From positions 62,001 through 126,000 of the forward strand of contig NZ_PDWS01000011.1 of the NCBI RefSeq assembly GCF_010093305.1: 64,000 bases of DNA, read 5' to 3'. Positions 39,827 through 44,510 of this stretch are shown here, in pieces. The position numbers and the translations under genes were made by a program. A model generated the notes under the pieces. That model ran no database searches. It worked only from the letters and a program-made list of their open reading frames with translations, and was not told the DNA's origin. The stretch comes from Pseudoxanthomonas sacheonensis. Lineage in GTDB: Bacteria; Pseudomonadota; Gammaproteobacteria; Xanthomonadales; Xanthomonadaceae. Position 1 is the first letter of the stretch. Each line of letters begins with the position of its first letter.

Positions 39827-40290
39827 ATCCGGTCCGTCGCCGCCGCCTGTTGTGGGTGCTGTTGCTTGTCGTTGCGGCGGGCGTCGCCACCACCCTGGTG
39901 GTGTTCGCCTTGCAGCGCAATGTCGCCTATCTCTACACGCCTGCCGAAGTGCTGCGCGGCGAAACCGGCGAGCGTGCGCGCTTCCGTCTGGGCGGCATGG
40001 TGGAAAAAGGCTCCTTCCAACGCACTCCCGGCTCGCTCGAAGTCCACTTCAAGGTCACCGACGGCGATGCGCTGCTGCCGGTGGTCTACAACCGCATCCT
40101 TCCCGACCTGTTCCGCGAAGGGCAGGCGGTAGTGGCCACGGGGACCATGAAGGACGGCGTATTCGTGGCCGAGGACGTGCTGGCCAAGCACGATGAGAAC
40201 TACATGCCCAAGGAAGTCGCCGACAAGATGGGCATGGCGCACAAGAAGCACGACGTGCAGGCGCCCGCCGCCGCGACGGAACAGCGCTAG
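39823..40290 (+). CDS. ccmE: Periplasmic haem chaperone CcmE
   Basis: A 155-residue chaperone anchored by an N-terminal helix ([20 protein letters not shown]). The haem-binding histidine is H123 in [10 protein letters not shown], with Y127 also conserved. The OB-like domain includes [12 protein letters not shown] and [14 protein letters not shown]. It receives haem from CcmC and hands it to CcmF. Translationally coupled to ccmD, and 0 nt from ccmF. Confidence 0.97.
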
Positions 40291-42210
40291 ATGCTGCCCG
40301 AACTCGGCCAGGTAGCGCTGATCCTGGCGCTGCTCGTCGCGGGCCTGCAGGCCGTGCTGCCGCTGGCCGGCGCGCAACGCGGCAAGGCCGGCTGGATGGC
40401 GGTCGCCCGCCCTGCCGCCTACGCGCAACTGTTCCTGGTGCTCGGCGCGTTCGTGGTCCTGACCGTGGCCTTCGTCACCCAGGATTTTTCGGTCAAGTAC
40501 GTGGCCGACAATTCCAATTCGCTGCTGCCCATGGTGTACCGCTACACTGCGGTCTGGGGCGCGCACGAAGGTTCGCTGCTGCTGTGGACGCTGGTGCTGG
40601 CGGTGTGGAACGCGGCCGTGGCCGAATTCTCGCGCGGGCTTCCCGAACGCGTGATCGCGCGCGTGCTGGGCGTGATCGGGCTCATCAGCCTGGGCTTCCT
40701 GGCCTTCCTGATCTTCACCTCCAATCCCTTCATCCGCCTGCTGCCAGCGCCGCTGGAAGGCCGCGACCTCAACCCGTTGCTGCAGGACGTGGGAATGATC
40801 ATCCACCCGCCGATGCTGTACGTCGGCTACGTGGGTTTCGTGGTGCCGTTCGCATTCTCCATCGCCGCCTTGATCGACGGCAGCGTGGATGCCCGATGGC
40901 TGCGGTGGACGCGGCCATGGACCAATATCGCCTGGGGCTTTCTGACCATCGGCATCGCCCTGGGCAGCTGGTGGGCGTACTACGAACTGGGCTGGGGCGG
41001 CTGGTGGTTCTGGGATCCGGTAGAGAACGCCAGCTTCATGCCCTGGCTGGCTGGTGCAGCGCTGCTTCACTCGCAGGCGGTGACCGAGAAACGCGGCAGT
41101 TTCCGCGGCTGGACTTTGCTGCTGGCCATCGCCGCTTTCTCGCTGTCGCTGTTGGGCGCCTTCCTGGTGCGCTCCGGCGTGCTGACCAGCGTGCATGCCT
41201 TCGCCGCCGACCCTTCGCGCGGACTGTTCGTCCTGATCTTCCTTGGGCTGGTGATCGGCGGATCGCTGGTGCTGTACGCGCTGCGCGTGCCGCGGCTGGA
41301 GCAGGGCTCGCCCTTCACCGCCGGTTCCCGCGAAACCCTGCTGCTGGCCAACAACGTGCTGCTGACCAGCGCTTGCGCGATGGTGCTGCTGGGCACGCTG
41401 TATCCGATGCTCGCCGATGCGCTGGGGCTGGGCAAGATCTCGGTCGGGCCGCCCTACTTCGGCCTGCTGTTCCTGTTGTTGATGACGCCGCTGGTGCTGC
41501 TGCTGCCGTTCGGGCCGCTGACCCGCTGGCAGCGCGAGGAAATGTCCCGGCCGCTGCGCATGCTGGCGCCCTGGGCGGTTCTGGCGCTGGCGCTGGGAGC
41601 GATCGCCTACTTCACCGCGCCGCAGGGCAAGTGGAAAACCGCCGCTGGCATCGCTACCGCCACCTGGGTCGCTTTCGGCACCTTGCGCTTCCTGTGGTCG
41701 CGCTTCAAATCCAAGGGCAACCGTTTCACCGCCGAGATGCTGGGCATGACTCTGGCGCATGGCGGTATTGCCGTGTTCCTGATCGGCGCGTTGCTGGTGG
41801 AAGGCCTGAACGTGCAGCGCGAGCTGGCGATGACGCCGGGCCAGTCGGAGCGGATCGGACGCTACTCGTTCCGTTACGAAGGCGTGGACGAACTGCAAGG
41901 CCCCAACTATCTGGCCACGCGTGGGCACGTGCAGGTGCTTCGCGGCGACCAGCCGCTGGTGCTGCTCAATCCCGAGAAGCGCGCCTACGCCAGCGGTGGA
42001 CAGGTGATGAGTGAAGTCGGTATCCACCCCGGCGTGTTCGGCGACGTCTACGTAGCGCTAGGCGAATCGCTGGGCGGCCAGGCGCGCGCGGTGCGCATCC
42101 ATATCAAGCCGTTCGTGCGCTGGATCTGGCTGGGTGCCGGACTGATGGCGCTGGGCGGTTTCGTCACCGCCACCGACCGGCGTTTCCGCAAACCCGAGGA
42201 CAAGCGATGA
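40291..42210 (+). CDS. ccmF: Cytochrome c haem lyase subunit CcmF
   Basis: A 639-residue, multi-helix protein that, with CcmH/CcmI, ligates haem to apocytochrome. The WWD signature reads GWGGWWFWDPVENASFMPWL, and conserved histidines lie in GAHEGSLLLW, IIHPPMLYVGY and LLHSQAVTEKRGSF. The C-terminal part (from about 470) is periplasmic in part. ccmG starts 4 nt before its end. Confidence 0.97.
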   Translation: MLPELGQVALILALLVAGLQAVLPLAGAQRGKAGWMAVARPAAYAQLFLVLGAFVVLTVAFVTQDFSVKYVADNSNSLLPMVYRYTAVWGAHEGSLLLWTLVLAVWNAAVAEFSRGLPERVIARVLGVIGLISLGFLAFLIFTSNPFIRLLPAPLEGRDLNPLLQDVGMIIHPPMLYVGYVGFVVPFAFSIAALIDGSVDARWLRWTRPWTNIAWGFLTIGIALGSWWAYYELGWGGWWFWDPVENASFMPWLAGAALLHSQAVTEKRGSFRGWTLLLAIAAFSLSLLGAFLVRSGVLTSVHAFAADPSRGLFVLIFLGLVIGGSLVLYALRVPRLEQGSPFTAGSRETLLLANNVLLTSACAMVLLGTLYPMLADALGLGKISVGPPYFGLLFLLLMTPLVLLLPFGPLTRWQREEMSRPLRMLAPWAVLALALGAIAYFTAPQGKWKTAAGIATATWVAFGTLRFLWSRFKSKGNRFTAEMLGMTLAHGGIAVFLIGALLVEGLNVQRELAMTPGQSERIGRYSFRYEGVDELQGPNYLATRGHVQVLRGDQPLVLLNPEKRAYASGGQVMSEVGIHPGVFGDVYVALGESLGGQARAVRIHIKPFVRWIWLGAGLMALGGFVTATDRRFRKPEDKR

Positions 42211-42797
42211 ACCAGGCTGCACCCACCCCCAAAAAGCCGCACACCGGTGCGTTCGTCTTCGCCGGCGTGATCATCGCGCTGTTCTTCATCGGCCTGATGG
42301 GGCTGCTTTACTACGGCGTGAAGCAATCGGACCGCGCCGGCCGCGACGCCCTGCCCTCGCCGCTGATCGGCAAACCGGCGCCGGCCTTCGACCTGCCGCT
42401 GCTGCACGAGCCGGGCAAGCGTTTCACCCTGGCCGAATTGCGCGGCCAGCCGTTCGTGATGAACGTGTGGGGCAGCTGGTGCCCGGAATGCCGTGTGGAG
42501 CATCCGGTGATCAGCAAGTTCGCGCTGACCAAGCGGGTGCGCTTCATCGGCTACAACCTGAAGGATCCGCGCGAGGACGCGTTGCGCTGGCTGGAGCAGT
42601 ACGGCAATCCCTACCTGATGGTGGTGGCCGACGAGGAAGGCCGCAACGCTATCGATTGGGGCATCTACGGCGCTCCGGAAACCTTCCTGGTGGACGCCAA
42701 TGGCATCGTTCGCTGGAAGCACGTGGGCGCTATCACCGACGAGATCATCGCCGAAGAACTGATTCCCGCGCTGGAGAAGGCGGAAGCCGGCAAGTGA
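42207..42797 (+). CDS. ccmG: Thiol:disulfide interchange protein CcmG/DsbE
   Basis: A 196-residue membrane-anchored thioredoxin-like protein that reduces CcmH or the apocytochrome Cys pair. An N-terminal helix (FVFAGVIIALFFIGLMGLLY) is followed by the active site WCPEC (C92, C95) in NVWGSWCPECRVEHPV and the cis-Pro motif YGAPETFLVD. The stop TGA overlaps a GTG that is the likely start of ccmH, and ATGA couples it to ccmF. Confidence 0.97.
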   Translation: MNQAAPTPKKPHTGAFVFAGVIIALFFIGLMGLLYYGVKQSDRAGRDALPSPLIGKPAPAFDLPLLHEPGKRFTLAELRGQPFVMNVWGSWCPECRVEHPVISKFALTKRVRFIGYNLKDPREDALRWLEQYGNPYLMVVADEEGRNAIDWGIYGAPETFLVDANGIVRWKHVGAITDEIIAEELIPALEKAEAGK

Positions 42798-43327
42798 ACA
42801 CGATCCTAGCCGCCTTGGATCGTTGTAGAGCCGAGCTTGCTCGGCTGCTTCTGTCTTTTGCTCCGATCAGGAGCAGCCGGGCAAGCTCGGCTCTACAAAG
42901 CATTGCGATGCTGGCGCTGCTGCTGTTCTCGACTCTCTGTTTCGCCCAGGTCAGCGACCCGACCCCGCTGCAGTTCCGCGACGCCGCCCAGGAAACGCGT
43001 TTCCACCAGCTCACCGCCGAATTGCGCTGCGTGATGTGCCAGAACCAATCACTGGCCGATTCCAATGCCCAGATCGCCCATGACCTGCGCCGCGAGGTTC
43101 TGGACCTGATGAACCAGGGCAAGTCCGACGCGGAGGTCAAGCGCTTCCTGGTCGACCGCTACGGCGAATTCGTGCTGTACAAACCCGATGTCGCCGGCAA
43201 CACCTGGCTGCTGTGGTTCGGCCCGGCGCTGCTGCTGATGGCAGGCGCCGCCATCGTCTTCCGCATCGTGCGCAAGCGCAGCGCCGCCGCCGGCACGATG
43301 GCCGACGACGACAATCAGGAGTGGTGA
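42794..43327 (+). CDS. ccmH: Cytochrome c maturation protein CcmH, with REP insertion in its N-terminal region
   Basis: CcmH (CycL type) holds the redox motif LRCVMCQNQSLADSNA, a helical domain, and a C-terminal membrane helix (TWLLWFGPALLLMAGAAIVF). The start was set at GTG 42794 because it overlaps the ccmG stop (GTGA), has GGAAG at 7 nt, and is in frame. The frame then crosses a 72-bp REP element (42825-42896, exactly 24 codons) before the hydrophobic MLALLLFSTLCFAQ. An ATG at 42908 would give 139 residues and a signal peptide without a basic start, but has no Shine-Dalgarno. The GTG form has 177 residues, longer than usual. I judge the GTG start likelier but not certain. Confidence 0.8.
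   Translation: MNTILAALDRCRAELARLLLSFAPIRSSRASSALQSIAMLALLLFSTLCFAQVSDPTPLQFRDAAQETRFHQLTAELRCVMCQNQSLADSNAQIAHDLRREVLDLMNQGKSDAEVKRFLVDRYGEFVLYKPDVAGNTWLLWFGPALLLMAGAAIVFRIVRKRSAAAGTMADDDNQEW
42825..42896. repeat. REP-like palindrome, family A (copy 3), inside the ccmH reading frame
   Basis: Same arms as the copies at 4796, 28297 and 63182: GTAGAGCCGAGCTTGCTCGG on the left, and the complement ending CTCTAC on the right. The length of 72 bp preserves the reading frame and no stop codon occurs in that frame. It encodes RAELARLLLSFAPIRSSRAS-type peptide. Confidence 0.9.
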
Positions 43328-44346
43328 TGGCAACTTTCATCGCACTGGCCGTGTTGCTGAGCGTGGCGGTGCTGGGCGGCGTGCTGTGGCCGCTGTGGCG
43401 CGATTCGCGCACGCTGGTGCTGGGCGGCATTGCGGCGCTGGGCCTGGCGGCCTTCGCCCTGTACCGCGCGACCGGTACGCCCGCTTCCATCGGGCAAGCC
43501 GCCAGCGAAGCACCTATGTCCCTGGATGCGGCCATCGCCGAATTGCGGACCGTACTCGAACGCAATCCCAACCAGCCCGAAGGCTGGCAGCTGTTGGGAA
43601 AAACGCTTGCCTCGCAAGGCAAGATGGCCGAATCGAGCGAAGCTTTCGCGCAGGCCGTGAAGCTGCTGCCGGACGATCCGAATCTGCTGGTCGAAGCCGC
43701 GCAGGCACGCCTGTACGCGTCGTCCGAGCGCAAGCTCGACAGCCAGGCCATCGCCTGGGTAAAGCATGCCCTGACCCAGCAGCCCGGCCACCAGCGCGCG
43801 ACCTGGCTGCTGGGTATTTCCCAGCGCCAGAACGGACAACCAGCCGCAGCCGCCAAGACCTGGGAACCGCTGCTTTCCCAGGTGGATCCGTCCACGGCCG
43901 CCACTTTGCGCAAGCAGATCGACGCCGCCCGTGCCGAAGCCGGCCTGTCGCCGTTGCCGGCCGCTACCGAACCCGCTGCCCAGACCGCCGCCGCCAACGC
44001 GCTGACGGTGAAGGTCGCGCTCGATCCGGACTTCGCCTCGCGCGTACGCCTGCGCGGCGACACCACCGTGTTCGTGATCGCGCGCATCCCAGGCGGTCCG
44101 CCGATGCCGGTCGCGGTGGAAAAACACAGCCTGCAGGATCTTCCTCTCAGCCTGACGCTGGACGATGGCGACAGCCCTATGCCCACGCAGAAACTTTCCG
44201 CGTTGAAGGAAGTGGAACTGATCGCGCGCCTGTCGGCCAGCGGCGATCCGATGCGCCAGGAAGGAGATCTGGAATCCAAGCCGGTGCGCGTGAGCCTGCC
44301 GGCCACTGCGCCTGTCGAACTGGTGCTGGGCGGCGCGAACCCGTAA
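43327..44346 (+). CDS. ccmI: Cytochrome c maturation protein CcmI (TPR domain)
   Basis: A 339-residue protein: two N-terminal helices (TFIALAVLLSVAVLGGVLWPLW and TLVLGGIAALGLAAFALY), then a periplasmic TPR region (MSLDAAIAELRTVLERNPNQ, GWQLLGKTLASQGKMAESSE), and a C-terminal domain with VFVIARIPGGPPMPVAV. CcmI chaperones apocytochromes to the CcmF/H lyase. Its start overlaps the ccmH stop by 1 nt (TGATG). It is the last ccm gene, followed by a family F repeat. Confidence 0.92.
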   Translation: MATFIALAVLLSVAVLGGVLWPLWRDSRTLVLGGIAALGLAAFALYRATGTPASIGQAASEAPMSLDAAIAELRTVLERNPNQPEGWQLLGKTLASQGKMAESSEAFAQAVKLLPDDPNLLVEAAQARLYASSERKLDSQAIAWVKHALTQQPGHQRATWLLGISQRQNGQPAAAAKTWEPLLSQVDPSTAATLRKQIDAARAEAGLSPLPAATEPAAQTAAANALTVKVALDPDFASRVRLRGDTTVFVIARIPGGPPMPVAVEKHSLQDLPLSLTLDDGDSPMPTQKLSALKEVELIARLSASGDPMRQEGDLESKPVRVSLPATAPVELVLGGANP

Positions 44347-44375: not shown

Positions 44376-44510
44376 CCTTCTCCCATCGGGAGAAGGTGCC
44401 CGAAGGGCAGATGAGGGAGTGGGCTTTCAGGTTGAGGGACAGTTTCCGTGGGCCGGACTTCTGCTTCTCTCATCCGTCGCTTCGCGCCACCTTCTCCCGG
44501 TGGGAGAAGG
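44376..44510. repeat. Composite inverted repeat, family F (copy 3)
   Basis: Left block CTTCTCCCATCGGGAGAAGG followed by GCAGATGAGGGAGTGGG; right block CTCTCATCCGTCGCTTCGCG then CACCTTCTCCCGGTGGGAGA. It occupies most of the ccmI-ohrR gap. Confidence 0.75.

Follow-up and report, generated by a model that had tools for sequence, protein, structure and literature searches.

The window, a stretch of 64,000 nt from Pseudoxanthomonas sacheonensis, carries on its plus strand a ccm operon with the gene order ccmC-D-E-F-G-H-I, as assigned by profile matches. The features of the junction between ccmG and ccmH are collected in Table 1. At this junction, the GTG start codon of ccmH and the stop codon of ccmG share a GTGA (42794-42797), i.e. 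they have the stop/start overlap of a coupled gene pair, and this GTGA is preceded by GGAAG (42782-42786), both as given in the preliminary description of this DNA. From the GTG at 42794, the reading frame is open through a REP element to an in-frame ATG at 42908, which lies 38 codons downstream, and on to the ccmH stop codon at 43325-43327. The protein starting at the GTG matches the Pfam CcmH profile (PF03918) at residues 42-170 with an E-value of 8.7e-49 and has the LRCxxCQN motif of the CcmH domain in the form LRCVMCQN.

Table 1. Features at the ccmG-ccmH junction and at neighboring junctions of the ccm operon (positions in the window)
Feature	Position	Strand	Basis and remarks
ccmE stop TAG followed by ccmF ATG, spacer 0, without coupler ORF	40288..40293	+	sequence; relatives with short spacers show this state
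ccmG (DsbE-family thioredoxin-like)	42207..42797	+	TIGR00385, E 1.3e-49; TGA stop at 42795-42797
GGAAG, Shine-Dalgarno-like	42782..42786	+	7 nt 5' of the GTG; motif match alone
GTGA overlap of ccmH GTG start and ccmG stop	42794..42797	+	sequence
ccmH from GTG, 177 aa	42794..43327	+	PF03918, residues 42-170
CcmH n-region codons 5' of the repeat	42798..42822	+	sequence
GTAG-type REP dimer, head to head	42823..42898	.	probably read within the n-region of the CcmH signal peptide
ATG in the ccmH frame, improbable as the start	42908..42910	+	motif scan and Lys/Arg count
Putative signal-peptide core MLALLLFSTLCFAQ	42908..42949	+	read from the sequence
ccmI/cycH-type gene	43327..44346	+	PF23892, PF23914; TGATG overlap with the ccmH stop

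The repeat within this frame is a REP dimer of 76 bp (TTGTAG...CTACAA, 42823-42898). Thus, the complete in-frame REP that had been described is present, but with a length of 76 bp and not 72 bp. The GTAG motif is at the outer ends (TTGTAGAGCC...GGCTCTACAA), and folding together with inspection of the sequence gave the short stem-loops and the head-to-head dimer arrangement of GTAG REPs (SMAG-like). As RNA, the element folds with -64.1 kcal/mol (z -11). It is a dispersed multicopy sequence with 79 two-strand matches in its own genome, which were grouped by hand into about 40 places (40 of 129 first-look candidates scored). In the same genome, seven of eight matches to Y1_Tnp (PF01797, RAYT-like) are above the cut-off, and one such RAYT-like gene (G000, C33:194261-194545) is flanked by REP dimers at C33:194020-194095 and C33:194710-194787; this gene is a candidate for the mover of the REP in the window.

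To place this junction among its relatives, 231 ccmG-ccmH loci (designated by L numbers) were gathered. The CcmH motif was found in 230 of them, L106 being dropped because it lacks the motif, and they contain 171 distinct junctions. The sample leans toward closer relatives, one search having contributed the best 80 of 384 matches; in a further search with 388 matching genomes, 119 stretches were taken from the matches listed. The distance from the ccmG stop codon to the LRC motif of CcmH is below 180 nt in 126 of the 171 junctions and at least 180 nt in 45, where this cut-off, as well as those of 210 nt and 30 nt used below, was picked once the distributions had been seen. An NTGA overlap is in frame and open in 115 of the 126 short junctions, and an NTG overlapping the ccmG stop is open and in frame in 42 of the 45 long ones. 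In P. yeongjuensis (L041), the GTGA is out of frame, and an open frame begins with an ATG located 7 nt past the ccmG stop. L102 and L108, with ccmG stops assigned 796 and 835 nt away, were left out of the tree and of the long-insert counts; in these two MAGs, ccmG is probably broken or misread.

All 33 junctions of 210-353 nt (33/171 distinct junctions) contain a palindromic repeat as judged by eye, while no such repeat was seen by eye in the ten junctions of 185-209 nt. The case in the window, which had been treated as singular, is accordingly a recurrent one. By eye, the repeats were assigned to four families: family A, GTAG-type, in 12 of the 33 junctions (L145 being a GTGG variant and L050 and L232 degenerate); family B, CGTCATTCCC-type, in seven; family C, AAATCCCCCC-type, in 13 (L107, L156 and L210 degenerate); and family D, another type, in one. 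Families B and C are high-copy elements, with 95-124 two-strand matches in each of four genomes searched and 91-144 in each of five genomes searched, respectively. On a tree of CcmG and mature CcmH (169 junctions, quick search), parsimony requires at least 22 changes of repeat state, and 10, 6 and 6 changes for families A, B and C taken singly; these counts do not separate gain from loss. The REP is missing in the sister species sp. CF125 (L039) and in P. gei (L040), and P. yeongjuensis carries a different repeat at this junction. Two Pseudoxanthomonas appear to differ in whether the REP site of ccmH is filled (L031) or near-empty (P. japonensis, L044/L027); the near-empty site of P. japonensis keeps the GTAG and may, therefore, represent a loss.

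The inserts keep the reading frame. Among the 33 repeat junctions, 32 are open from the overlapping start, and in the remaining one the open frame begins at an ATG 7 nt further on; the same openness was obtained in 30.8% of cases with dinucleotide-shuffled inserts and in 10.9% if the length was also random modulo 3. Rough parsimony counts on the tree gave 99 length changes versus three changes modulo 3 over all junctions (binomial p 7e-42 against two thirds) and 33 length changes versus one change modulo 3 over the long junctions (binomial p 1e-14 against two thirds). As seen by eye, the family B inserts use different frames, with a VIPAKAG-type reading in five of seven and an SFPRRRES-type reading in two of seven, and the TAG-containing frame of the GTAG inserts is unused.

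The junction between ccmE and ccmF was considered as a neutral control for the frame but failed as such, because its spacers are also multiples of three (75/84) and are crossed by an ORF. About 155 loci extended far enough upstream; both genes were resolved in 125 of them, and in 84 of these 125 the spacer is at least 30 nt long. The ccmE stop codon is TGA in all 84 long-spacer loci versus 14 of the 41 others. In 74 of the 84 loci, an ORF that is read from an NTG overlapping this stop, and which we refer to as a coupler ORF, ends at position +11 in ccmF; in 82, its end is at most 12 nt away from the ccmF start, the exceptions being L135 (-173) and L156 (+31); shuffled spacers of random length pass this criterion in 22% of cases. 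The coupler stop sits within the sequence ATG CTG CCT GAR at the ccmF start. Codon 3 of ccmF is CCT, which creates the TGA, in 78 of the 84 long-spacer loci (plus one GGT) versus 4 of the 41 short-spacer loci (Fisher 6e-21, uncorrected for kinship). In a comparison of supported independent pairs, 7.1 of 9 have CCT on the side of the long spacer and 0.1 show the opposite (median p 0.016); for the TGA, 8.4 pairs agree with the long spacer and 0 oppose it (p 0.004). Of 60 spacers of at least 80 nt, 58 are open in the coupler frame, versus 28 and 19 in the other forward frames and 32-35 in the reverse frames. Over all long spacers, four stops are present in the coupler frame if counted from ccmF (nine if counted from ccmE) versus 56-74 in the other frames.

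Coupler ORFs reach up to 112 codons. Examples in relatives are those of L192, L227, L149, L220 and L272:1995-2183. In a Xanthomonas sacchari record, a spacer of 174 nt has a coupler ORF ending at +11, and the gene table of this one record, which is incomplete, has no annotated gene in the spacer. An N-terminal extension of CcmF was ruled out by stops in the ccmF frame in 42 of 77 long spacers. A conserved small protein was likewise rejected: in 29 aligned pairs, many of them distant and poorly aligned and with gaps that are multiples of three in 61 of 234 cases (no better than chance), differences are spread over the three codon positions as 229/217/214 (p 0.75), and in seven gapless pairs as 44/39/49 (summed by hand). 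Motifs of repeat families, scored crudely for four types, are present in only 15 of the 84 long spacers and, therefore, the coupler rule applies to any kind of spacer DNA and not mainly to mobile repeats. By eye, Xanthomonas spacers contain GGGACCC-type arrays. The spacers of L220, L217 and L198 consist mostly of GGGACCCGGGACCC/GGGTCCCGGGTCCC arrays, another palindromic repeat type.

Based on these patterns, we suggest a model in which the REP in the n-region of CcmH is translated from the GTG by reinitiation, and in which selection acts on the frame and the overlap and not on the peptide; we assign this reading a probability of roughly 0.78. In this model, a REP dimer would have entered the n-region of CcmH, or would have survived there. 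Ribosomes finishing ccmG would re-initiate at the GTG at 42794 and would translate the repeat into about 25 additional residues before entering the hydrophobic core, and the long n-region would be expected to leave with the signal peptide. The n-region could be a permissive landing place because length and composition are tolerated there, while termination-reinitiation depends on a stop codon and a start codon lying almost side by side. For three gene pairs of E. coli, separating the two codons by 38 nt is reported to lower reinitiation by 80-90% or to abolish it (PMC10666635). Because reinitiation is distance-limited in this way, an operon relying on it would keep inserts at a junction only if they are translated, with selection on lengths in multiples of three without a stop and on the stop/start overlap. 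Such a need for coupling would account for the kept frame, for the unrelated insert sequences and for the start staying on the stop. Stable structures just past stop codons govern reinitiation according to PMC7518266. The very stable hairpin 26 nt past the ccmG stop could be a hindrance to reinitiation. CcmF presumably tolerates no N-terminal extension, and a free-standing, unconserved coupler ORF would serve the ccmE-ccmF pair.

A common rule seems to apply to both junctions, namely that translation, and hence coupling, would be kept unbroken where spacer DNA collects. Extending this, we lean toward the view that continuity of translation across junctions is a selected trait of Lysobacteraceae ccm operons that is indifferent to sequence. 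Any entering DNA, be it unrelated REPs, other repeats or unrecognised spacer, would then be kept readable, as an N-terminal extension of CcmH, as a coupler ORF or, rarely, as a C-terminal extension. The last form is represented by L211 (= L084), in which a CGTC-type repeat is in frame at the C-terminus of CcmF and the ATGA overlap with ccmG is kept.

If the REP were instead an untranslated leader, CcmH would be made from the ATG at 42908, coupling to ccmG would be lost or replaced and the hairpin would be a post-transcriptional element between the two genes. The in-frame ATG, the ATG at the corresponding place in P. gei and the strong RNA hairpin fit this explanation, as does the published opinion of Di Nocera et al. 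(2013; main text of PMC3733652) that most N-terminal REPs are probably not coding and may be extragenic. With an untranslated leader, the frame would be free, yet 32 of the 33 inserts keep it, and 33 length changes on the tree include one change modulo 3. Moreover, no Shine-Dalgarno-like motif among those scanned is present at the ATG at 42908, whereas the GTG has GGAAG 7 nt upstream, and a start at 42908 leaves no Lys or Arg ahead of the core, while each of the 115 short in-frame junctions has at least one such residue in the n-region if this is counted from the overlapping start. Within a range that begins 14 codons ahead of the most hydrophobic stretch and extends 2 codons into it, 13 of the 33 repeat junctions have no ATG, GTG or TTG, and in eight, including the one in the window, a start near the core leaves no Lys or Arg; among the larger group of 43 long junctions, 19 lack all three codons near the core and 35 lack an ATG. 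A start near the core with Lys or Arg is present in 12 of the 33 and, therefore, a later start is possible in these. With a start near the core missing or without Lys or Arg in 21 of the 33 junctions and the frame kept, the REP in the window is very probably translated from the GTG at 42794, and we regard the untranslated leader as improbable. Of the two alternatives in the preliminary description, the REP coding for about 24 residues via the GTG is thus strongly favored by the frame being kept across junctions with and without repeats, and the start at 42908, with loss of coupling and a replaced ribosome-binding site, is disfavored. REP-free relatives with a ccmH start at that position had been proposed as a contrary case; P. 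gei is not a clear instance of this, because it has an internal ATG aligned to 42908 while the frame that begins at its GTGA overlap is open as well. The expectation that expression or secretion of CcmH differs from that in relatives is not supported by the pattern, which points rather to coupling being preserved.

Translation of the inserts could also shield the mRNA of the operon from Rho-dependent polarity or from decay, in which case any open frame suffices and reinitiation is not what is being served. This would explain the open frames as well as the even spread of differences over codon positions in the ccmE-ccmF couplers (229/217/214), i.e. the lack of peptide conservation. Alone, however, it leaves unexplained that the coupler starts on the ccmE stop, that its end is no more than 12 nt from the ccmF start in 82 of 84 loci, and the CCT codon. 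We consider mRNA protection unlikely as the sole explanation; protection and coupling can act together. Even less probable than an untranslated leader, in our view, is that the residues encoded by the repeat have acquired a function, for instance with the longer n-region tuning SRP/Sec targeting or the level of CcmH. The repeat ends next to the core contain Arg (SALR, SALQ) and the insertion recurs in many lineages, as a recruited function might predict, but unrelated families and different frames serve equally, relatives manage without an insert (126/171 junctions are short) and a conserved peptide was not seen. Domestication of the REP, in the sense of a selected peptide function as proposed earlier, accordingly finds no support, and translation with a neutral peptide, started by reinitiation, remains the reading that we prefer.

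In-frame palindromic elements and coupling by MIRUs are already known. The REP in the window resembles the GTAG REPs/SMAG of Stenotrophomonas and other gamma-proteobacteria, as portrayed in the main text of PMC3733652, in its GTAG ends, stem-loops, head-to-head dimers, about 40 scored places and RAYT-like genes. Intragenic copies are described there, but most N-terminal copies are held to be probably extragenic; neither "ccmH" nor "cytochrome" was found in that main text. Rickettsia palindromic elements are similar in being palindromic mobile elements kept in frame inside ORFs (PMC10969869, in excerpt). However, those elements sit in many unrelated genes, while at ccmG-ccmH several unrelated families have entered a single junction again and again, and it is the n-region of a signal peptide, beside a stop/start overlap, that tolerates them. 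In mycobacteria, interspersed repetitive units (MIRUs) with an ORF couple to a gene at a spacing of -4, thereby limiting the harm of insertion (PMC12548453, in excerpt). MIRUs bring their own ORF, whereas the ccm inserts are bridged across different families, frames and non-repeat spacers; in the window, the repeat does not supply an ORF ending at the host start but has a frame that is continuous with CcmH, and this frame differs between elements. Termination-reinitiation coupling, as treated by Huber et al. (2023; PMC10666635, in excerpt), shares the overlapping stop and start at operon junctions and the steep fall with distance, but provides the constraint and not the evolutionary response seen at the ccm junctions. 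None of the open-licence papers among the matches listed deals with repeats in ccmH or with a ccmE-ccmF coupler.

If the model is correct, these bridges for ribosomes would be genuine ORFs that are translated but encode no functional protein, and other operons may commonly have them as well. The data suggest a coupler class of small ORFs that are conserved only in their beginning, their end and the absence of stops and, therefore, would be missed by conservation-based searches and by annotation. Whether N-terminal repeats are coding or mis-annotated was left open in the main text of PMC3733652; comparative frame statistics strongly favor the coding reading at one site, and they predict that a periplasmic maturation factor, CcmH, contains residues that are translated and without function. 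Together, the two junctions give a simple testable statement on how operons survive insertions.

Copies of the repeats are also present elsewhere. A BLAST of the inserts against 1.01 Mb of loci revealed further copies upstream of and around ccmE/ccmF and after ccmI. Across the 125 loci compared at the ccmF-ccmG junction, the thioredoxin motif is 203-283 nt away, L232 with 378 nt being the one exception; the scan of the ccmH-ccmI junction was too crude to exclude in-frame inserts. In the genome of the window, 39 other REP places were collected and the frames through them tabulated. Ten ORFs running through these REPs were compared with Pfam; three (L259, L263 and L002) have a domain, in each case downstream of the REP, seven have none, and a second coding REP was not demonstrated among the ten. 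At L259, on the minus strand, a REP situated immediately 5' of the gene for an EF-hand protein is in an open frame, and the start of this protein is signal-like. Finally, 3' of ccmI in the window, at about 44388-44418, there is a short repeat-like stretch that resembles the GGGAGAAGGTGCCCGAAGGGC repeat of other loci.
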